Shown: positions 38,828-48,614 of the stretch, piece after piece | How positions within the stretch are numbered: the first letter of the stretch is position 1 | How the letters are laid out: each line of letters opens with the position of its first letter | From: Zobellia uliginosa | GTDB taxonomy: Bacteria > Bacteroidota > Bacteroidia > Flavobacteriales > Flavobacteriaceae | Length of the DNA: 64,000 bases | Assembly: GCF_018860745.1 (NCBI RefSeq) | Contig: NZ_JAHKPY010000001.1 | Coordinates: 62,001 to 126,000 of the forward strand | Reading direction: 5' to 3' | Notes under the pieces: model-generated | Database searches by the model: none | Told to the model about the DNA's origin: nothing | Seen by the model: the letters and a program-made list of their open reading frames with translations, nothing else | Position numbers and translations under genes: made by a program

Positions 38828-40057
38828 ATGAATACCCAAAAAGTATACATGCGAAAGCCAAAGATACGCCTGAACAGGATTAAAGATAAGACCAAATTAC
38901 TACTAAAGTTCAACTACATATCAGCTGTTCTTAGTCTAATTATAGGTCTAATATGTTCGTTTGCATTACAAATGCACGGCACTATACCATATGTTTTCTA
39001 TTTTTATTTTGTTCTAAACGTTTTGAATATAGCCGCCTTTAGTAGGCATTACAACCTTACTACTATGGCAATTGGCACATCTGTACTTTCTTTCTTAAGT
39101 ACAATTGTAATTACTCTTTTTAGTGGAGGTATCAATAGCCCTTTTATCTTTATCCTTGGTCTCATTGTACTAGCTGGTTATATCTCTACCAAAGTTTTTG
39201 GCAGGGTTTATTTGTATCTTATCATTATCACTATAGTCTTAATATATTTAATTGACTATGCTAATTTTGATTTTATTATAAACGAAGTTCCTGAAAACTC
39301 TAGAGATGTATTCAGCTTGATAAGCATTTTGTTCTCAGTTTATCTATTAGGTGGTGTTTTGGGAAAAAACCTATTGAGAACCCACCATAACCTATACAAA
39401 TCAAAAGCTCGGATTGAAAAAAGTGTAGATGAAAAAGAAAACCTTTTAAGAGAAGTACATCACAGAGTTAAAAACAATCTACAAACGGTCTCTAGCCTTC
39501 TTAATTTACAGGTTAGAAATACACCCAACCAACAAATTAAAGAATTGGTGAAAAGTAGTCAAAATAGGGTAACCGCTATGGCTATGATTCATGAAATGCT
39601 ATATGTTCGTGACAATCTCTCTAAAATTGAATTTGCATCTTACGTAAAGGAATTAACACAATATCTTTTAAGAACGGTTGAACGTAAGGATAGAAAAATT
39701 AATGTTGAAATAAACGTTCCCGATACTTTATTGAGTATTGATACGGCCATTCCACTAGGTTTATTGATTAACGAAACCGTTACCAACTCTATTAAATATG
39801 GATTTAGAGATGCTGAAGTGGGCAAAATAACGATTGAGTTAGAAAAAAGGTATCAAAATAAATATATTCTAAAAATCAGCGATGATGGAGCCGGTTTTCC
39901 ATTAGACTACGATTTTAAGAACTCTAACACCCTGGGATTAAGACTTATTCATAATCTTGCCAGACAATTACAAGGTACTATAGAACGTCTTCCTTCTTCT
40001 GCCGGCACTACCTATAAACTAGTATTTAAAGATATTACAAGTCAGTTTAAGGGGTAA
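38828..40057 (+). CDS. Membrane histidine kinase, HisKA_2 type (paralogue 1)
   Basis: This 409-residue protein has about six transmembrane segments (residues 25-180), a short coiled coil and a HisKA_2 kinase domain (EVHHRVKNNLQTVSSLLNLQ; probable phospho-His212) followed by HATPase_c (NETVTNSIKYGF; DDGAGFPLDY; LGLRLIHNLARQL). There is no PAS or periplasmic sensor. Residues 100-106 read GGINSPF, between the third and fourth helices, resembling the GGxxNPF quinone-binding heptapeptide of RegB/PrrB. The gene stands alone after secA's terminator. No response regulator is adjacent. Confidence 0.9.
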   Translation: MNTQKVYMRKPKIRLNRIKDKTKLLLKFNYISAVLSLIIGLICSFALQMHGTIPYVFYFYFVLNVLNIAAFSRHYNLTTMAIGTSVLSFLSTIVITLFSGGINSPFIFILGLIVLAGYISTKVFGRVYLYLIIITIVLIYLIDYANFDFIINEVPENSRDVFSLISILFSVYLLGGVLGKNLLRTHHNLYKSKARIEKSVDEKENLLREVHHRVKNNLQTVSSLLNLQVRNTPNQQIKELVKSSQNRVTAMAMIHEMLYVRDNLSKIEFASYVKELTQYLLRTVERKDRKINVEINVPDTLLSIDTAIPLGLLINETVTNSIKYGFRDAEVGKITIELEKRYQNKYILKISDDGAGFPLDYDFKNSNTLGLRLIHNLARQLQGTIERLPSSAGTTYKLVFKDITSQFKG

Positions 40058-40305
40058 GTATTATATTAGCGAACGCTATTTTTATCTGCAATAATTTTTT
40101 CTCAACTTAATTTATTTTTTTCTGTCATAAAATGACAGAAAATTCGGAATAAAATTGTAGTTTTCTAGCAGAAGCCCCAGCTTTACCAATTTAAAGAGTA
40201 TTCTATTATTAGAATAAAGCCATGCCAATAAAGGCCTGATTTGTCTATTCTAATAGTGGTTTGTTGCTTTCTACTATAGCTTCAATATATTTAGTAATGC
40301 CTTAT

Positions 40306-41514
40306 ATGAATATAATTCAAAGTAGATTGGACAACCAAAGTAGGTTGCTGATCAACTTTGCCTACTCTTCATCTGCTCTTGCGTTTTTAATAGGTTTACT
40401 ATTAATTTATGTATTGGGCGTTGTAGGTTATATTCCCGCAACGTTCCTTCTATACGCCATTTTGAACCTTGCCAATACATTTTTATATAAAAAATATAAC
40501 AAACTACTCATCACCTCTCTTATTAGTTCTGCGCTATCTCTAATTGGTGTGGTTGTAGTAACCATCTTCAGTGGTGGCATTAATAGTCCGTTTATATTTG
40601 TTTTTAGTATCATAGTTTTAGGTGGCTATATGACAGCCCATATTTTTGGAAAAATATACTTAACAGTTGTATTGCTCTCTATTCTTGGAATCTATGCTTT
40701 AAGTGAATTCGCATCCATCACAAATGAAATACCTGAAAGTTCAAGAGATCTTTACGCATTAATATGCATCGTTTTTTGCTCCTATTTATTGCTTGGGGTT
40801 TTTGGAAAACACCTCTTGAGAACTCATGAAAGACTGCAGGATTCAAAATCAGAAATAGAAGCGGGAATAGCCGAAAAAGAAGTCCTTCTTAGGACAGTTC
40901 ATCATAGGGTAAAAAATAATTTACAAACCGTATCAAGTCTTCTTAGCTTACAGTCAAAAAACACCGATAATAATAAAATTAAAGAGCTCGCCATAAGCAG
41001 TCAACTTAGAATCAACTCTATGGCAATGATACATGAAATGCTCTACATGCAGAATAACATATCTAAAATCGCCTTTAAGCCTTATTTACAAGAGCTTACC
41101 GATTTTTTAATTAAATCTGCAAACAGTAAAAATCTTGATATAACGGTTCATATAGATATGCCAGAGGTTAATCTTGGCTTAGACACGACAATTCCTTTGG
41201 GCCTGCTTATTAATGAGGCTGTTACAAATTCGTTAAAATATGGATTTCCCGAAAATACGCAAGGTAGAATAGATATTGTTCTAAAAGAGGATATTAAGGA
41301 TTCTCACACCTATTTTCTAGACATAACTGATAATGGAATTGGTTTTCCTAACGAAATAAACCATAAAACCACTAAATCATTAGGCCTTAAACTCATGCAC
41401 AATTTAGGCCGTCAACTAAGAGGTTCTGTTACCCGGATCAAGTCGGATATTGGAACCGGATATCACATTATTTTTAAAGATAAGGACCGACATTTACCCG
41501 GTATCAATGGGTAA
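40306..41514 (+). CDS. Membrane histidine kinase, HisKA_2 type (paralogue 2)
   Basis: This 402-residue kinase matches paralogue 1 in order: six hydrophobic segments, GGINSPF at residues 90-96, coiled coil, HHRVKNNLQTVSSLLSLQ and HATPase_c (NEAVTNSLKYGF; DNGIGFPNE; LGLKLMHNLGRQL). The frame stays open back to 40261 (TTG), but ATG 40306 (MNIIQSRLDNQ) aligns with the short basic N-termini of the other two; ATG 40297 is also possible. A 203-bp gap separates it from paralogue 1. Signal and partner are unknown. Confidence 0.88.
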   Translation: MNIIQSRLDNQSRLLINFAYSSSALAFLIGLLLIYVLGVVGYIPATFLLYAILNLANTFLYKKYNKLLITSLISSALSLIGVVVVTIFSGGINSPFIFVFSIIVLGGYMTAHIFGKIYLTVVLLSILGIYALSEFASITNEIPESSRDLYALICIVFCSYLLLGVFGKHLLRTHERLQDSKSEIEAGIAEKEVLLRTVHHRVKNNLQTVSSLLSLQSKNTDNNKIKELAISSQLRINSMAMIHEMLYMQNNISKIAFKPYLQELTDFLIKSANSKNLDITVHIDMPEVNLGLDTTIPLGLLINEAVTNSLKYGFPENTQGRIDIVLKEDIKDSHTYFLDITDNGIGFPNEINHKTTKSLGLKLMHNLGRQLRGSVTRIKSDIGTGYHIIFKDKDRHLPGING

Positions 41515-41587
41515 ATTTCAAGAAGATCAACGTTCCTATTCGTTACGTAAAAATCAATATCTTTAAAGAAACCTAGATTTTCAAAAA

Positions 41588-42979
41588 ATGAAAAATTCTC
41601 GTCGAAAGTTTCTCTCATCTATTAGTATGTTAGCTGCCAGTTCAGCCATTCCCCTTCATGCTTTTGATTTTGGTTCATCAAAAAAATTGAAAATAGCCCT
41701 TGTTGGAACGGGAATAAGAGGTATTACTTTTTGGGGTAAAAGGTTAATTACGGAATATTCCAATATCATAGAATTTGTTGGGCTTTCCGATATAAACTCT
41801 AGTAGACTGGCATACGCCAAAAAGTATATTGGTGTTGAATGTCCTGTTTTTATCGACTTTAAAAAAATGGTGACAGATGTTCAGCCGGACCTTATAATTG
41901 TTACTACAAAGGATTCTACCCATCATAAATTTATAATACAAGGTTTAAATATGGGGTGCGATGTGTTGACCGAAAAACCCCTTACGGTAGACGAAACAAA
42001 ATGCCAGGCTATTTTAGATGCCGAGAAAAAATCGGATAAAAGCTTAATAGTAGGTTTCAATTACAGATGGAGCCCATACGCCACAAAAGTGAAAGAGCTT
42101 TTAATGGAAAAAACTATTGGAGATTTAGTTTCGGTAGACTTTAGCTGGTATCTCAATACCTATCATGGCGCTTCATATTTTAGAAGATGGCATGGTGAAA
42201 TGAAAAGCAGTGGCTCACTTTGGGTGCACAAATCCACACATCATTTTGATCTATTGAACTGGTGGATAGACTCTGAACCAAGTGAAGTATTTGCCTACGG
42301 CGATTTAGAATTCTATGGAAAAAACGGTCCGTTTAGAGGGGACAACTGCCGCACATGTAAACATAGTGATAGTTGCGATTTTTATTGGGATATTACCAAG
42401 GATGAATTTATGAAAGAACTTTATGTAAATCATGAACATGAAGATGGTTATATTCGCGATAACTGTCTATTTAGAAAAGATATAGATATATATGATAAAA
42501 TGTCTGCTCAAGTAAAATATGCGAACAATACTACCCTAAATTACTCCCTTACCACCTACTCTCCTTTTGAAGGTTGGCGTGTAGCTTTTAACGGAACCAA
42601 AGGACGTATTGAAGCCTCACAGGATATTCCGTATAACATGAGTAAAACTATATCAGAAGCTGAAAAGCATTCCAATGAAATGGATCAGACCAGTAAAAAT
42701 GAATTATCTTCTGAGTCCATAATAGTTCACAAACTATGGAAAGAGTATGAAACTATTGAAGTTCCTATGGAAAAAAAAGGTCATGGAGGCGGTGACAAAC
42801 GCTTACAGGATAAAATTTTTAAAACTTCGGACATGGAAGATCCTTTTGGCAGAACGGCAGGTATAAGAGATGGGGCCATGTCAATCCTCATTGGTATTGG
42901 GGCAAGACGCAGTATTGAACAGAAAAAATTAATCAAAATTTCAGAGCTTACAAATTTACAACCACAAGTAAAACGATAG
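41588..42979 (+). CDS. Gfo/Idh/MocA oxidoreductase with Tat-like signal
   Basis: This 463-residue protein begins MKNSRRKFLSSISMLAASSA, a twin-arginine-like signal, then the NAD(P)-binding Rossmann motif LVGTGIRGI, the EKPLTVDE motif of the family, and the C-terminal substrate domain. A Cys cluster C-x2-C-x5-C (CRTCKHSDSC, about residues 257-266) followed by a later NC may bind metal. Members oxidise or hydrolyse sugars and glycosides, some as periplasmic enzymes. It interrupts a run of kinase paralogues and has no sugar operon next to it. Confidence 0.87.
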   Translation: MKNSRRKFLSSISMLAASSAIPLHAFDFGSSKKLKIALVGTGIRGITFWGKRLITEYSNIIEFVGLSDINSSRLAYAKKYIGVECPVFIDFKKMVTDVQPDLIIVTTKDSTHHKFIIQGLNMGCDVLTEKPLTVDETKCQAILDAEKKSDKSLIVGFNYRWSPYATKVKELLMEKTIGDLVSVDFSWYLNTYHGASYFRRWHGEMKSSGSLWVHKSTHHFDLLNWWIDSEPSEVFAYGDLEFYGKNGPFRGDNCRTCKHSDSCDFYWDITKDEFMKELYVNHEHEDGYIRDNCLFRKDIDIYDKMSAQVKYANNTTLNYSLTTYSPFEGWRVAFNGTKGRIEASQDIPYNMSKTISEAEKHSNEMDQTSKNELSSESIIVHKLWKEYETIEVPMEKKGHGGGDKRLQDKIFKTSDMEDPFGRTAGIRDGAMSILIGIGARRSIEQKKLIKISELTNLQPQVKR

Positions 42980-43103
42980 GTAATGTTAAATACATTGATT
43001 TAGCAATAGTATTTGCCCTACTTATTTGATTGTGCCATAAAACATATTAGATTTACTTAATTACGCAGGTCATTCCGTAAAGAGAAAAACAAATTACCTT
43101 TTC

Positions 43104-44318
43104 ATGCAGCAGAGTACCCCATTAGAAAAAAAACTTAAAAGCAAGGTTAGGCTGGTTTTAAAAGTCAATTACTATTCTTCTCTCCTTTCTTTAGTTTTTG
43201 GTGGTATTTGCTTTTTTCTACTTGACATTAAAGAGGTTATCCCTTATGCCTTTCTTGCTTTTGGCATCTTGAATTTGATTAACATTCTTTTGTTCAAATA
43301 CCACAACAACCTTACACTTACCTATAATATTGTTTCTATGATGACCTTGGCCGGTGCCAGTCTCGTTACTCTCTACAGTGGAGGAATCAATAGTCCGTTC
43401 ATTTTTGTTCTGGCCCTCATTGTTGTTGCGGGATATGTTACCACAAAGGCCTATGGTTCTATTTATCTTAACTTGAACATATTAATAATTGTACTTATTT
43501 ATTCTCAGAGCGTTGCTGATTTTAATTTTGTGGAAAATGTTGTCCCAGAGACTTCGCAAAATTTATTCGCCCTCCTCAGTGTCTTATTCTCTGTTTACCT
43601 TTTAGGTGGTGTTTTTGGAAAAAACTTGCTTCATGCACATCATAATCTCTATAAAACCAAGAACGAACTTGAAGAGAAAATACGCGAAAAGGAAACTTTA
43701 ATAAAAGAAGTTCACCACAGGGTTAAAAATAACTTGCAAACCGTATCTAGCCTTTTGAGCTTACAATCTAGAAGTATTGAGGACAAAGATGTAAAAAGCC
43801 TTTTGAAAAGTAGTCAAAACCGGGTTATTACTATGGCTATCGTTCATGAAATGCTTTATATGCGCGAAGACCTCTCTAAAATCGAATATAGATCTTACGT
43901 ACAAGAACTTGCGGAATATTTAGTACGCTCTATAAAAGGTACTAGCAGTAATATTACTTTGAATATAGACATTCCAAATGTAAAATTGAATATAGATACC
44001 GCTATACCACTGGGCCTTTTAATAAATGAAACGGTAACCAACTCCCTAAAATATGGTATAGTAAATGAAAATAAGGGAGAAATACGTATCAAACTCCGAA
44101 AGACCGATGATGATGAGTTTGTTCTTAGCGTAGGAGATGATGGCAAAGGTTTTCCCGAAGAGGTAACGCATAAAAACTCAAAATCTCTTGGTCTAAAGTT
44201 AATACATAACCTATCCAGACAATTGCACGGCTCTATAATGAGAGATTTCAGCGAGGAAGGTACACACTACATCATTAGATTTAAAGAAATAAGAGATCAA
44301 ATTACTAGTGTAGCTTAG
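43104..44318 (+). CDS. Membrane histidine kinase, HisKA_2 type (paralogue 3)
   Basis: This 404-residue protein has the same layout as the other two kinases: hydrophobic segments to about residue 175, GGINSPF at 93-99, HHRVKNNLQTVSSLLSLQ, and HATPase_c with NETVTNSLKYGI and DDGKGFPEE. It is visibly closer to paralogue 1 than to 2 in the kinase domain (for example KSSQNRVITMAIVHEMLYMREDLSKIEY). Its presence after an unrelated oxidoreductase suggests local duplication followed by insertion of that gene. Its output partner is unknown. Confidence 0.9.
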   Translation: MQQSTPLEKKLKSKVRLVLKVNYYSSLLSLVFGGICFFLLDIKEVIPYAFLAFGILNLINILLFKYHNNLTLTYNIVSMMTLAGASLVTLYSGGINSPFIFVLALIVVAGYVTTKAYGSIYLNLNILIIVLIYSQSVADFNFVENVVPETSQNLFALLSVLFSVYLLGGVFGKNLLHAHHNLYKTKNELEEKIREKETLIKEVHHRVKNNLQTVSSLLSLQSRSIEDKDVKSLLKSSQNRVITMAIVHEMLYMREDLSKIEYRSYVQELAEYLVRSIKGTSSNITLNIDIPNVKLNIDTAIPLGLLINETVTNSLKYGIVNENKGEIRIKLRKTDDDEFVLSVGDDGKGFPEEVTHKNSKSLGLKLIHNLSRQLHGSIMRDFSEEGTHYIIRFKEIRDQITSVA

Positions 44319-44468: not shown

Positions 44469-44723
44469 TTATACTAAACGGGGCTTATCTAATTGAGTAA
44501 CAAAATTTAGAGCTTTCTTCACTCTATATTCTTTTAAATTATACAATCGCACTAAGCTGTTGCTGGAACTAATTTCATCTTTCTGAGCAATCTCAACATT
44601 ACTAAAGCTAAAAGCCAGAACAGAATCCATTTTAAAATGGTGATTTTTAACATTGACTATTGTGTTGGATGGAACAATTGTTCCGAAGTTTAGAACAAAT
44701 AGCAAAATCAAAATAGGTTTCAT
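44469..44723 (-). CDS. Small exported protein, diverged paralogue of the tandem 79-aa family
   Basis: ATG 44723 starts MKPILILLFVLNFGTIV, a signal peptide; an upstream in-frame ATG (44762) would put it behind a 13-residue extension. The 84-residue product ends with RLYNLKEYRVKKALNFVTQL, matching RLYKRDNARVTKALSFTTKR of the three tandem genes at 45132-47034. The middle has diverged. It has no known domain and is likely periplasmic or secreted. Confidence 0.65.
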   Translation of the reverse strand: MKPILILLFVLNFGTIVPSNTIVNVKNHHFKMDSVLAFSFSNVEIAQKDEISSSNSLVRLYNLKEYRVKKALNFVTQLDKPRLV

Positions 44724-44762
44724 AATTATAATTTGGGCATTATAAAGATAAACATAAAACAT

Positions 44763-45129: not shown

Positions 45130-45131
45130 GA

Positions 45132-45371
45132 TTAAGCCATTTTAGCCTTGTTTCTTTTTGTAGTAAAAGAAAGCGCCTTAGTTACTCTAGCATTATCTCT
45201 CTTATATAAACGAGCAACCTCTACTGTGTTTTCAAAGCTAACTTCCTCAGTTGAAGTTTCGGTAACGATAGTCATTTCAATAGTATCGACTTTTACCGTT
45301 TCAGTAGCAGTTTGAGCTTGAGCAGTTACTCCGATAAAAAGAACAAATATTAAAGTTGCGATAGTTTTCAT
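45132..45371 (-). CDS. Small exported protein, tandem copy 1 (79 aa)
   Basis: The product has a signal peptide (MKTIATLIFVLFIGVTAQAQ) and a mature part of about 59 residues, acidic and Thr/Val/Glu-rich in the first half and basic at the end (RLYKRDNARVTKALSFTTKR). No known domain is recognised. It is identical in protein sequence to copy 2 and differs by one residue from copy 3. The DNA differs from copies 2 and 3 by a silent change in an Ile codon of the signal peptide. The ATG is 7 bases after a 7-bp hairpin (45379-45398), as in each copy. Confidence 0.85.
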   Translation of the reverse strand: MKTIATLIFVLFIGVTAQAQTATETVKVDTIEMTIVTETSTEEVSFENTVEVARLYKRDNARVTKALSFTTKRNKAKMA

Positions 45372-45378
45372 GACTTGA

Positions 45379-45398
45379 CGTTTTATATAATTAAAACG
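45379..45398 (-). promoter_or_regulatory. Hairpin next to the start codon, present in all three tandem copies
   Basis: CGTTTTA/TAAAACG (7 bp) with loop TATAAT ends 7 bases before the ATG, exactly where a ribosome binds. Identical hairpins precede the other two starts (46211-46230 and 47042-47061). It may control translation or be part of a palindromic operator. Confidence 0.5.
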
Positions 45399-45874
45399 CC
45401 GCAGACCCCATTCTACCGAGGTTCCATTCGCTGAAAAACCCCTTATTTTCGGTTATCCGCACAACTTCGGTTCAACTGTAAAAAACCATCGGTGAACGTA
45501 AATAACCCAAAAAACACTTTACCGAACCATTATGCTTTTTATCCGGAAAAAGTGATTTTAATTTCATAGAAATAAAAAGAAAACCCTTAGAGCAATATTA
45601 ATGTTATTTTGATTTTTTTCAATTTTATTAGATTTTAATCCCTCAATAAATATTGAACTTTTGAAAATTAATAAGTGAAGCAAAATGAATTAAGCCGTAT
45701 ATCTATTCTACACATTACAAGAACCTATTACCCTTTTTTAATAACCACAGTAATTTAGATGACCTCTTTATAAAGTCTAAGCATAGAAATCATAGGCTTG
45801 CATAAAACAATTTGTTCTCCAACTAAATGAACTATGTGCACCGAAGTTGCACAACAAATAGTTTGTTTATGACG

Positions 45875-46457
45875 TAGAAAGATGTAAAGTGATATATAAA
45901 TTACTATATATACTAAATAAGTGTATAGATATATGTGACGCTCGGATAGTTTATAAAAATTGATTAAGCCATTTTAGCCTTGTTTCTTTTTGTAGTAAAA
46001 GAAAGCGCCTTAGTTACTCTAGCATTATCTCTCTTATATAAACGAGCAACCTCTACTGTGTTTTCAAAGCTAACTTCCTCAGTTGAAGTTTCGGTAACGA
46101 TAGTCATTTCAATAGTATCGACTTTTACCGTTTCAGTAGCAGTTTGAGCTTGAGCAGTTACTCCGATAAAAAGAACAAAAATTAAAGTTGCGATAGTTTT
46201 CATGACTTGACGTTTTATATAATTAAAACGCCGCAGACCCCATTCTACCGAGGTTCCATTCGCTGAAAAACCCCTTATTTTCGGTTATCCGCACAACTTC
46301 GGTTCAACTGTAAAAAACCATCGGTGAACGTAAATAACCCAAAAAACACTTTACCGAACCATTGTGCTTTTTATCCGGAAAAAGTGATTTTAAATTCATG
46401 GAAACAGAAAGAAAACCCTTAGAGCAATATTAATGTTATTTTGATTTTTTTCAATTT
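45875..46457 (-). repeat. Tandem repeat copy 2 (3' flank, gene and 5' leader)
   Basis: Near-identity to copy 3 runs from 45875 through the gene to beyond the leader; near-identity to copy 1 runs from 45962 to about 46457. The 3' flank contains a small AT-rich stem (45907-45914 with 45920-45927). Confidence 0.9.
45964..46203 (-). CDS. Small exported protein, tandem copy 2 (79 aa)
   Basis: The protein is identical to copy 1, with the same signal peptide and basic C-terminal RLY...KAL...TKR segment. The gene lies 832 bp from copy 1. The leader is identical to copy 1 except one base. Coding and flanking DNA are more alike than the spacer between the copies, pointing to gene conversion or recent exchange. 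Confidence 0.85.
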   Translation of the reverse strand: MKTIATLIFVLFIGVTAQAQTATETVKVDTIEMTIVTETSTEEVSFENTVEVARLYKRDNARVTKALSFTTKRNKAKMA

Positions 46458-46705
46458 CATAAGGTTTTGACCCCTTTTAAGTATTAAACTGTTGAAAAAT
46501 TTACAAGTGAAGAAAAATAAATCAATACGTCAATCTATGCAAAGCATTACCAGAAACTATTATTTATATCATAACCGTCGTAATACATATAATCTCTTAA
46601 CAGAGTCTAAGTATAGAAGTCATAAGCTTTCATAATGCAATAGATTCTTTACTTAAATGAACTATGTTCTCTGTGGTCTTACCTGGAACAGTTTTAATTA
46701 TGAAA

Positions 46706-47212
46706 TAGAAAGATGTAAAGTGATATATAAATTACTATATACACTAAATAAGTGTATAGATATATGTGACGCTCGGATAGTTTATAAAAATTGATTAGGC
46801 CATTTTAGCCTTGTTTCTTTTTGTAGTAAAAGAAAGCGCCTTAGTTACTCTAGCATTATCTCTCTTATATAAACGAGCAACCTCTACTGTGTTTTCAAAG
46901 CTAACTTCCTCAGTTGAAGTTTCGGTAACGATAGCCATTTCAATAGTATCGACTTTTACCGTTTCAGTAGCAGTTTGAGCTTGAGCAGTTACTCCGATAA
47001 AAAGAACAAAAATTAAAGTTGCGATAGTTTTCATGACTTGACGTTTTATATAATTAAAACGCCGCAGACCCCATTCTACCGAGGTTCCATTCGCTGAAAA
47101 ACCCCTTATTTTCGGTTATCCGCACAACTTCGGTTCAACTGTAAAAAACCATCGGTGAACGTAAATAACCCAAAAAACACTTTACCGAACCATTGTGCTT
47201 TTTATCCGGAAA
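46706..47212 (-). repeat. Tandem repeat copy 3 (3' flank, gene and 5' leader, truncated at the left edge of its leader)
   Basis: Identity with copy 2 extends from 46706 to 47212, where it stops abruptly at TATCCGGAAA. Offset from copy 2 is 831 bp. Confidence 0.9.
46795..47034 (-). CDS. Small exported protein, tandem copy 3 (79 aa)
   Basis: The product differs from copies 1 and 2 only at one residue of the mature part (DTIEMAIVTE instead of DTIEMTIVTE) plus a silent change in the last Ala codon. Signal peptide and basic end are unchanged. It is the copy furthest upstream on its strand; the leader sequence is intact for about 178 bp and then replaced by unique sequence. Confidence 0.85.
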   Translation of the reverse strand: MKTIATLIFVLFIGVTAQAQTATETVKVDTIEMAIVTETSTEEVSFENTVEVARLYKRDNARVTKALSFTTKRNKAKMA

Positions 47213-47588
47213 TCTAGTTCCTTTCTAGTTCAAAAATCTTCTCTTTACTACTATGCATTAAATAAAAATTACTGTTTATGCTTAGTTCTATACATCCATC
47301 CGTTTCTTTTCTTTGAACTGTGAGCTTTTTAATCAACTCTTTCAAAACCTACCTTTTAACTTATTCCAGATATAGCAAACCCCGGTCTACTTATCATGTA
47401 TACCTTACAATTAATAATGATAACCCAATTCACTTGTAGTATTCTACTTGCAATGGTACTCGATGAACGAACGATCCAGAGTGGACTTTTGACGAATATT
47501 AGTTAATATTATTGGAACGATAAGTCAAAATGAATAATTTGCAGGTTCTTTTGAAAAAGAAAATAGATTAATTTAAAATCACTGAATT
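47213..47588. other. Spacer between the tandem repeats and the malectin lipoprotein gene
   Basis: This 376-bp stretch has no credible coding frame. It holds the probable promoter of the lipoprotein gene (47512-47541). The rest is AT-rich and unlike the repeats. Confidence 0.5.
47512..47541 (+). promoter_or_regulatory. Probable promoter of the malectin lipoprotein gene
   Basis: TTG (47512-47514) is followed by TAATTTG (47535-47541). The distance from TTG to TTTG (23 bases) equals that of the TTG-N19-TAnnTTTG consensus, though the -7 box is one base short. Confidence 0.45.
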
Positions 47589-48614
47589 ATGAGACGTAAT
47601 TTAATTACAAGATTTTTTCTGTTCTCAATGTTATTTGTATCATTTATTATGGTACCCGTTGCCTGTAGCAGCGATGATGGGGGAACTGATGACAAAGAAC
47701 AAACACCCGATCCGGATCCGGAACCGGAGCCAGAGCCAGCACCTGAACCAGACCCAACAAACGAAAATACTATTATAGATGCTACTGCAGCTTCTCACGC
47801 CAACGGAATTAGCACCTCTACCATAACCGTTCAATTAGCAGATGCAGATGGCAATAAGCTTAAAGCCAGCGGTGGTGTAATAGTTTTATCAGCTACGGGA
47901 TCGACCACAATTTCTGAAATTACCGATAATGCAGATGGAACTTACACAGCTACTGTAAGTGGTGACGTAGAGGAAACAATTACTGTATCGGGAACATTGG
48001 ATGGTACGGACATTACAAGTACTGTAGACATTACATTTAACCCGGATGAATCTAATCCGGCACAAGAAGCATCACAGTCAACAGAAGCAGCTGGTCCTAC
48101 TTTATTAAGGATTAATTGTGGAGGAGATGAAATAACTTTCGGAGATGTTACTTTTCTTGCTGATCAATATTTTGACGGTCCTACCGAAGCTTATAACAAC
48201 CCTAATGTGGACGTATCAGAAATAACGAATACGGATATGCCGGAGCTCTATATTACAGAGAGAATAACTGATAACACAGATGTTAAAGGCCCATTCTCTT
48301 ATAAAATTCCGGTTTCCGATGGCACTTACACAGTTAAACTTTACTTTGCAGAAGTTTACTGGGGGGTTCAGAACCCAGAAGGACTAGGAGAGGAAGACGG
48401 TACCGGCCGTAGAGTCTTTAATATTTCTATGGAAGATGAAGCTATTTTTACAGGATATGATCTTTATAAGGAACATGGTGCTTTATCCGCCGGAAGCCGT
48501 ATGTACGATGTTGAAGTTACAGATGGTGAGTTAACTATTACTCTTGAAGCGACAGTTAACAAGCCTAAAATATCAGCTATTGAAGTTTTTGGAACTGGAA
48601 CAATAGGTTCGTAA
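47589..48614 (+). CDS. Surface lipoprotein with Ig-like and malectin-like domains
   Basis: This 341-residue protein has a lipoprotein signal (lipobox VPVAC-SSDDGG). The acidic residues right after the Cys resemble the Bacteroidota surface-export signal. A Pro/Glu-rich linker (about 38-57) leads to an invasin-like beta-sandwich (about 60-152), then a malectin-like domain (about 170-335; LLRINCGGDEITFGDVTFLAD, YTVKLYFAEVYW, GRRVFNISMEDE, FTGYDLYKEHG). Malectin domains bind carbohydrate, so a surface glycan-binding role is inferred. It has its own promoter and a terminator. Confidence 0.88.
   Translation: MRRNLITRFFLFSMLFVSFIMVPVACSSDDGGTDDKEQTPDPDPEPEPEPAPEPDPTNENTIIDATAASHANGISTSTITVQLADADGNKLKASGGVIVLSATGSTTISEITDNADGTYTATVSGDVEETITVSGTLDGTDITSTVDITFNPDESNPAQEASQSTEAAGPTLLRINCGGDEITFGDVTFLADQYFDGPTEAYNNPNVDVSEITNTDMPELYITERITDNTDVKGPFSYKIPVSDGTYTVKLYFAEVYWGVQNPEGLGEEDGTGRRVFNISMEDEAIFTGYDLYKEHGALSAGSRMYDVEVTDGELTITLEATVNKPKISAIEVFGTGTIGS

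Follow-up and report, generated by a model that had tools for sequence, protein, structure and literature searches.

Tandem genes for a small exported protein and their conserved upstream site array in Zobellia uliginosa

Three small genes lie one behind another on the minus strand of the window, by which we mean the whole stretch of 64,000 nucleotides analysed here, at 45132..45371, 45964..46203 and 46795..47034, and each of them encodes an exported protein of 79 amino acids. Their starts are 832 and 831 bp apart; the proteins of the lowest-coordinate and middle copies are the same, and that of the highest-coordinate copy differs by one replacement, Thr34Ala, the only protein difference in the row. 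Pairs of coding sequences differ at 1, 2 or 3 bases per 240 bp (1-2 of 80 third codon positions), and the 175 bp upstream differ by 0 or 1 base. In 40-bp windows, gene and upstream region are 97-100% alike, the middles of the spacers are about 55-80% alike, and the outer flanks of the row have no evident relatedness. The two spacers (45554..45963, 410 bp, and 46386..46794, 409 bp, neither assigned to a strand) are 82% identical over 407 aligned bases versus 46% when one is shuffled, which points to duplication of the whole unit of about 831 bp as the original event. A preliminary description had claimed near-identical genes at this spacing with a single Thr-to-Ala change, an upstream stretch identical save for one base and central spacers of moderate similarity; coordinates and sequence comparison bear it out, and the base-by-base alignment that it proposed gives 98.8-100% likeness for genes plus about 175 bp of upstream DNA against 82% for the spacers. 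This likeness is far above chance. Since the duplication, the middles of the spacers have drifted apart, whereas the genes, their upstream regions and short flanking parts have remained alike.

What keeps such copies alike, and what use might a cell have for them? The account that we favor has several parts—a tandem row held together by gene conversion, an array of sites and a promoter for each copy, an activator shared by all of them and, as the outcome, a raised dose of a cationic surface protein—and with all parts taken jointly we think it about evenly balanced between being right and being wrong. If true, nature would provide here a clear example of gene conversion that takes in a gene and its promoter while the spacers diverge. 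It would also point to an undescribed exported protein family in one flavobacterial clade, and it would offer a specific operator-like sequence; the protein that binds it might connect surface adhesins with exopolysaccharide and with these small proteins. Of these matters, the conserved promoter array is more interesting than the likeness of the copies.

The protein and its possible function

As read, the signal peptide ends AQAQ; in the mature protein that follows, the middle varies and is usually acidic, and the tail, about 28 residues with the motif RLYK..N.R..KALSFTTKRNKAKMA, is conserved and cationic. For the analysis of charge, 81 proteins were kept and 75 scored (59 of the 81 were used for family profile work); the tail carries a net charge of at least +4 in 75 of 75, and the middle region is net negative in 67 of 75. 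Searches of Pfam and NCBIfam with 59 members returned weak matches only, in one or two members each, a profile search of PDB sequences gave no credible match (best E 0.32) and one protein compared with PHROGs had weak matches only; tail charge and searches agree with the earlier remark that the mature proteins have a basic end and no known domain. The AlphaFold model (mean pLDDT 63.6) tells us little: an N-terminal helix is confident and hardly anything else is, as one would see with disorder but also with a shallow alignment. By these comparisons, the proteins appear to be an undescribed family, found here only in one flavobacterial clade. A literature search by locus tags estimated from map position (a weak query) did not find the genes, another on tandem genes and gene conversion returned nothing about them and the part of PMC5613140 that was available makes no mention of them.

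The row is longer than three genes. A divergent fourth paralogue at 44469..44723 on the minus strand prolongs it (84 aa from the ATG at 44723, or 97 aa from an alternative start at 44762); it is 34% identical at E 0.01 in a sequence search and scores E 2e-21 with the family HMM, and the array model R1, to which we return, found no upstream site array before it. A further relative of 58 aa, on another contig of the same genome, lacks a signal peptide and keeps the tail motif.

With few shared neighbors and no family match, function has to be inferred, as does the shared regulator. Our best guess, from sequence, is a cationic protein of the surface or matrix, amplified for dosage and co-regulated with exopolysaccharide: the several copies would give the cell more of a cationic, largely disordered protein that acts at its surface, where it would most plausibly bind the cell's own uronate-containing exopolysaccharide. 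Biofilms have small basic matrix proteins, which the family resembles in export, in the basic tail and in a possible co-regulation with exopolysaccharide genes; it differs from the known ones in that searches of Pfam, NCBIfam and PDB sequences gave nothing credible.

A possible alternative, which we place on the unlikely side while taking it seriously, is that the protein is a secreted peptide precursor: the acidic middle would serve as a pro-region, and the cationic tail, about 28 residues long, would be set free as a peptide with antimicrobial or signaling activity. Known cationic peptide precursors have acidic pro-regions, and the signal peptide, the variable and mostly acidic middle and the conserved basic tail of the family are built along the same lines; there is also a weak, sub-threshold resemblance to the plant prepropeptide family GLV1-2 (E 0.06). 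The neighborhood can be read in the same way. Of the 67 stretches around family genes that were compared, which partly overlap, 18 have histidine kinases belonging to a single cluster, and the window itself has three HisKA_2 kinases beside the array, at 38828, 40261 and 43104 (within 38828-44318). The commonest neighbors also include an ABC ATPase and a MacB/FtsX-type permease, named by Pfam, which share 23 of the 67 stretches and are frequently accompanied by a GDSL hydrolase (19 of 67); none of the five Zobellia stretches compared has the ABC pair. Against this alternative, no neighbor cluster is present in more than 26 of the 67 stretches, and, unlike the case with known cationic peptide precursors, there is no gene for processing, export or immunity that most stretches have in common. 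As for the ABC genes, they resemble a housekeeping operon, of what we take to be the tesA-ybbA-ybbP type. The signal is of the Sec type, with no double-glycine leader as read; the 58-aa relative has the tail motif with no signal peptide at all, and the tail seems more conserved than one would expect of a bacteriocin.

We also considered the histidine kinases as partners of the family and set them aside, their cluster being found in 18 of the 67 stretches only; seven stretches also have a cluster that, from its sequence, we presume to be SecA-like, and ordinary synteny is therefore a possible explanation for the kinases. A GFO/IDH oxidoreductase separates the kinases at 40261 and 43104. On the other side, a lipoprotein with Invasin_D3 and malectin domains (47589-48614) adjoins the array in divergent orientation, with a TTCATCGA site at 47460 upstream of its gene; its cluster is found in 9 of the 67 stretches, the window included.

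Divergence within and between genomes

If the copies are homogenized, then copies in one genome should resemble each other more than they resemble their counterparts in other species, and on average they do. Among 20 copies in 9 Zobellia genomes (one spurious 42-bp match was dropped), identity at third codon positions is 0.966 within genomes (13 pairs, 9 genomes) versus 0.726 between genomes, and that of the upstream region 0.970 versus 0.847. Copies group by genome in six of the nine (the window's own, G001, G003, G005, G007 and G008, with support of 0.946-1.000); those of G006 group with a support of 0.496, and those of G002 and G004 are intermixed.

The spacers tell how old the duplications are. 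Between species, they are clearly alignable in two pairs only, G002/G004 (83%) and G006/G008 (86%), and the remaining pairs reach 60% identity or less, with shuffled sequences at about 43-49%. Since G006 and G008 have spacers that are 86% alike, the duplication must be older than the split of this sister pair, and the spacers common to each of the two pairs place duplication before homogenization. The third positions of the G008 copies show no difference at all, those of the G006 copies show 6 and each of the four G006-G008 pairs shows 8. The two copies of G004 differ at 3 third positions, but at 20 positions upstream; its first copy differs from the G002 copies at 5-8 third positions and its second at 8-11, with 3-5 differences among the G002 copies themselves, to which the first G004 copy is thus almost as close as they are to one another. 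Copies have been homogenized in G008 and, more weakly, in G006 and G004. Gene conversion between the tandem units would be the simplest account, as the preliminary description had suggested from the mosaic of more and less similar parts, and it gains from the third-position contrast and from a duplication that predates the G006/G008 split; it would not have been equally active across species.

Could each species, instead, have duplicated the gene independently and recently? The copies of most species do cluster together, and the spacers of most species pairs are not clearly alignable above the shuffled level, both of which one would expect of recent duplication. Yet, in the window, spacers that have diverged by 18% lie beside genes with 1-2 changes in 80 third positions and upstream regions with 0-1 in 175, and two sister pairs have spacers in common, with one genome's copies identical at third positions; we regard independent duplication as improbable.

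Gene conversion thus remains our preferred reading, and it has company. Tandem multigene families under concerted evolution include, for example, the rRNA and tuf genes, and the Zobellia genes are like them in being closer within a genome than between species while their spacers diverge. They are unlike them in that what is homogenized here is a protein gene of 240 bp, from one clade, together with its own upstream array of sites.

The upstream array and related sites elsewhere

From 133 family genes, filters on E, length and ATG left 87, of which 63 were less than 90% alike and 60 were used. Their upstream regions, from several genera, align nearly without gaps at a mean identity of 61%, with a consensus that fades about 180 bp before the ATG. 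An alignment so free of gaps over several genera points to selection, in keeping with the proposal that selection acts on the whole transcription unit. Conserved, then, is an upstream region of about 125 bp with near-fixed spacing and no conserved RNA fold. In the window, the sequence-only model R1 places the array on the minus strand at 45424..45547 (92.9 bits, a sequence that was part of R1 training), 46256..46379 (93.5 bits) and 47087..47210 (93.5 bits), before the copies at 45132, 45964 and 46795, respectively. R1 also finds the region before a divergent G039 paralogue outside its training set (E 2.9e-20).

What is in the array? Exact TTNANCGA or TCGNTNAA sites number 2.29 on average (range 0-4) per 127 bp in 42 hand-chosen sequences, versus 0.18 in Markov shuffles. 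The consensus has about six degenerate TTNANCGA-like sites, two reversed and then four forward, near positions 5, 26, 53, 74, 93 and 114 (those near 5, 53, 74 and 114 were flagged by script and the remaining two read by eye), and exact sites are frequent at three positions (33, 19 and 12 of 42), with 2 of 42 at another. Autocorrelation of column conservation at 20-22 bp gave no significant periodicity (p 0.42), and, taken by itself, the degenerate motif shows no enrichment over the window (40 occurrences for 39.4 expected). A -35-like hexamer, separated from TAGAAT by 16 bp, is overlapped by the last TTNANCGA-like site; this candidate promoter, TTTTCA-N16-TAGAAT, lies on the minus strand at 45410..45437, 46242-46269 and 47073-47100, with its -10-like box 39-44 bp before the ATG, both by consensus match only, and promoter-like sites in the region number 18 versus the 13.6 expected from shuffles. 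There would thus be one promoter per copy, and the last TTNANCGA-like site would lie over its -35 position, an overlap from which we infer that one activator drives all of the copies.

LytTR-type operators, such as the AgrA/ComE-like ones, consist of 9-bp direct repeats about 21 bp apart, with 12-13 bp between them. The array may be like them in having short repeats about two helical turns apart beside a promoter-like box; it is unlike them in the number of its degenerate sites, about six, in the presence of the TTNANCGA core in both orientations and in its GCATTTCATCGAT-type sites, which look palindromic as read. A literature search on LytTR repeats in Bacteroidetes or on flavobacterial biofilm regulators found nothing.

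The preliminary description spoke of a conserved leader. Its conservation holds; that it is transcribed does not seem to, since most of it lies upstream of the -10-like box and is probably promoter. A structured regulatory RNA, either a riboswitch or another leader, could be imagined from the length and conservation of the region and from the fold of a single sequence (z -1.7), but it had no Rfam match at gathering thresholds, the RNAalifold consensus of the 60 sequences amounts to 5 pairs and -1.0 kcal/mol, the -10-like box is downstream of the region and the one recurrent hairpin is confined to the last 30 nt or so before the ATG; with Rfam and RNAalifold both negative, we rejected the RNA reading as very improbable, the short hairpin excepted. 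That hairpin, computed for the copy at 45132 with a 7-bp stem (45379..45398, minus strand), has the same letters before the other two copies (46211-46230 and 47042-47061). A perfect stem of at least 6 bp precedes the ATG in 38 of the 60 sequences, versus 8% of shuffles, and its letters vary among sequences with complementarity kept; it may stabilize the mRNA.

Similar sites are found far from the family genes. Paired sites 12-14 bp apart have 37 matches in 4 genomes versus 16 for backward controls, and 17 of the 30 loci examined among the 37 are intergenic, versus a baseline of 11%; off-phase pairs, at 17-19 bp, have 16 matches versus 12 controls. The sequence GCAYTTYRTCGA is over-represented in Zobellia, with 59 matches versus 17 controls in 4 genomes. 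Intergenic positions make up 21 of the 30 loci examined among the 59, versus a baseline of 7.6% (all intergenic calls come from a crude ORF caller, 70 aa or more); the other 9 are inside ORFs. Orthologues are among these loci, which are therefore not independent. Some GCAYTTYRTCGA loci precede adhesin or polysaccharide genes; for several, the gene downstream has no evident connection with the surface. For GCATTTCATCGA, matches and controls number 53 and 1 in 9 Zobellia genomes, 102 and 13 in 28 further genomes of the family, and 7 and 5 in 23 genomes of other families, which are often smaller; it is present also in genomes without a convincing small-protein gene, such as G015 and G022. R1 finds family genes and, weakly, other promoters, among them an adhesin promoter at E 0.02.

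A gene for a PKD/CBM96 lipoprotein has close orthologues in six of the nine Zobellia genomes. Upstream of every one of the six there are 3 or more exact forward sites, and five of these regions have an exact pair spaced by 20-21 bp. The best lipoprotein matches of the remaining three genomes are 41-47% identical, with 0 or 1 exact forward site; with several lipoprotein paralogues counted as well, the range is 0-2. Of the stretches drawn for this comparison, L184 and L185 were wrong ones, and L190 and L191 repeated L174 and L173. The neighbors of the gene in the window's genome—two UDP-glucose/GDP-mannose dehydrogenase genes, two epimerase-family genes and one for an MBOAT acyltransferase—suggest an acylated uronate exopolysaccharide.

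We link the GCATTTCATCGA-like sites to those of the array by resemblance only. On that link, the same or a related regulator would also control adhesin and exopolysaccharide genes through GCATTTCATCGA-like operators. One may go further and imagine a flavobacterial surface regulon, as yet undescribed, with a GCATTTCATCGA-like operator and with the array as its most elaborate target; the product of the array would then be a secreted cationic peptide, cut from an acidic pro-region, that gives order to the matrix of uronate exopolysaccharide or carries signals from one sister cell to another. As a whole, this seems to us decidedly unlikely.

Three other places may be mentioned. An exopolysaccharide-type locus (L232:1-16001) has a 1241-aa PKD repeat lipoprotein with two pairs of TTCATCGA-like sites upstream. 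In two Zobellia genomes (L199 and L202), a GCATTTCATCGA site lies 52-53 bp before a conserved 123-aa protein. The gene at L230:2071-4161 encodes a protein of 696 aa whose first part has TPR repeats and whose end, as read, resembles a histidine kinase; a GCATTTTATCGA about 100 bp upstream of it makes this protein a possible sensor in the same regulon.

Occurrence in relatives

Two or three close tandem copies are present in all nine Zobellia genomes searched, four of which are assemblies of one or two contigs. Single-copy relatives, which the preliminary description had named as evidence against its proposal, did not turn up among them. More widely, 15 of 99 relatives (the window's own genome included) have a match at E < 1e-10. 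In an order-wide sample, at least 10 of 296 genomes match at this level, in 8 of 90 genera, and at least 11 further genomes have matches between 9e-5 and 1e-3, mainly in the N-terminal part; these counts are lower bounds, with up to 18 first-look candidates scored per genome. The 133 genes of the family set are what was kept after removal of partial matches and duplicates, and named loci come from Zobellia, Pseudozobellia, Maribacter, Pricia, Euzebyella, Kriegella, Aurantibacter, Pelagihabitans, a Croceitalea and uncultured kin.

An assembly artefact, which near-identical repeats and the ending of contigs at these genes in some draft-assembly relatives might bring to mind, has next to no chance of explaining the copies, because all nine Zobellia genomes have them in tandem, four of these in one or two contigs, and the spacers between copies have diverged. 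A plasmid origin was considered and dropped, with no match in a plasmid collection. Arrays of copies recur, with three copies at one site and four at another on a single contig (L057 and L058). One family copy, at G057:C29:4605-5029, has two stop codons, and its upstream array is still recognizable.
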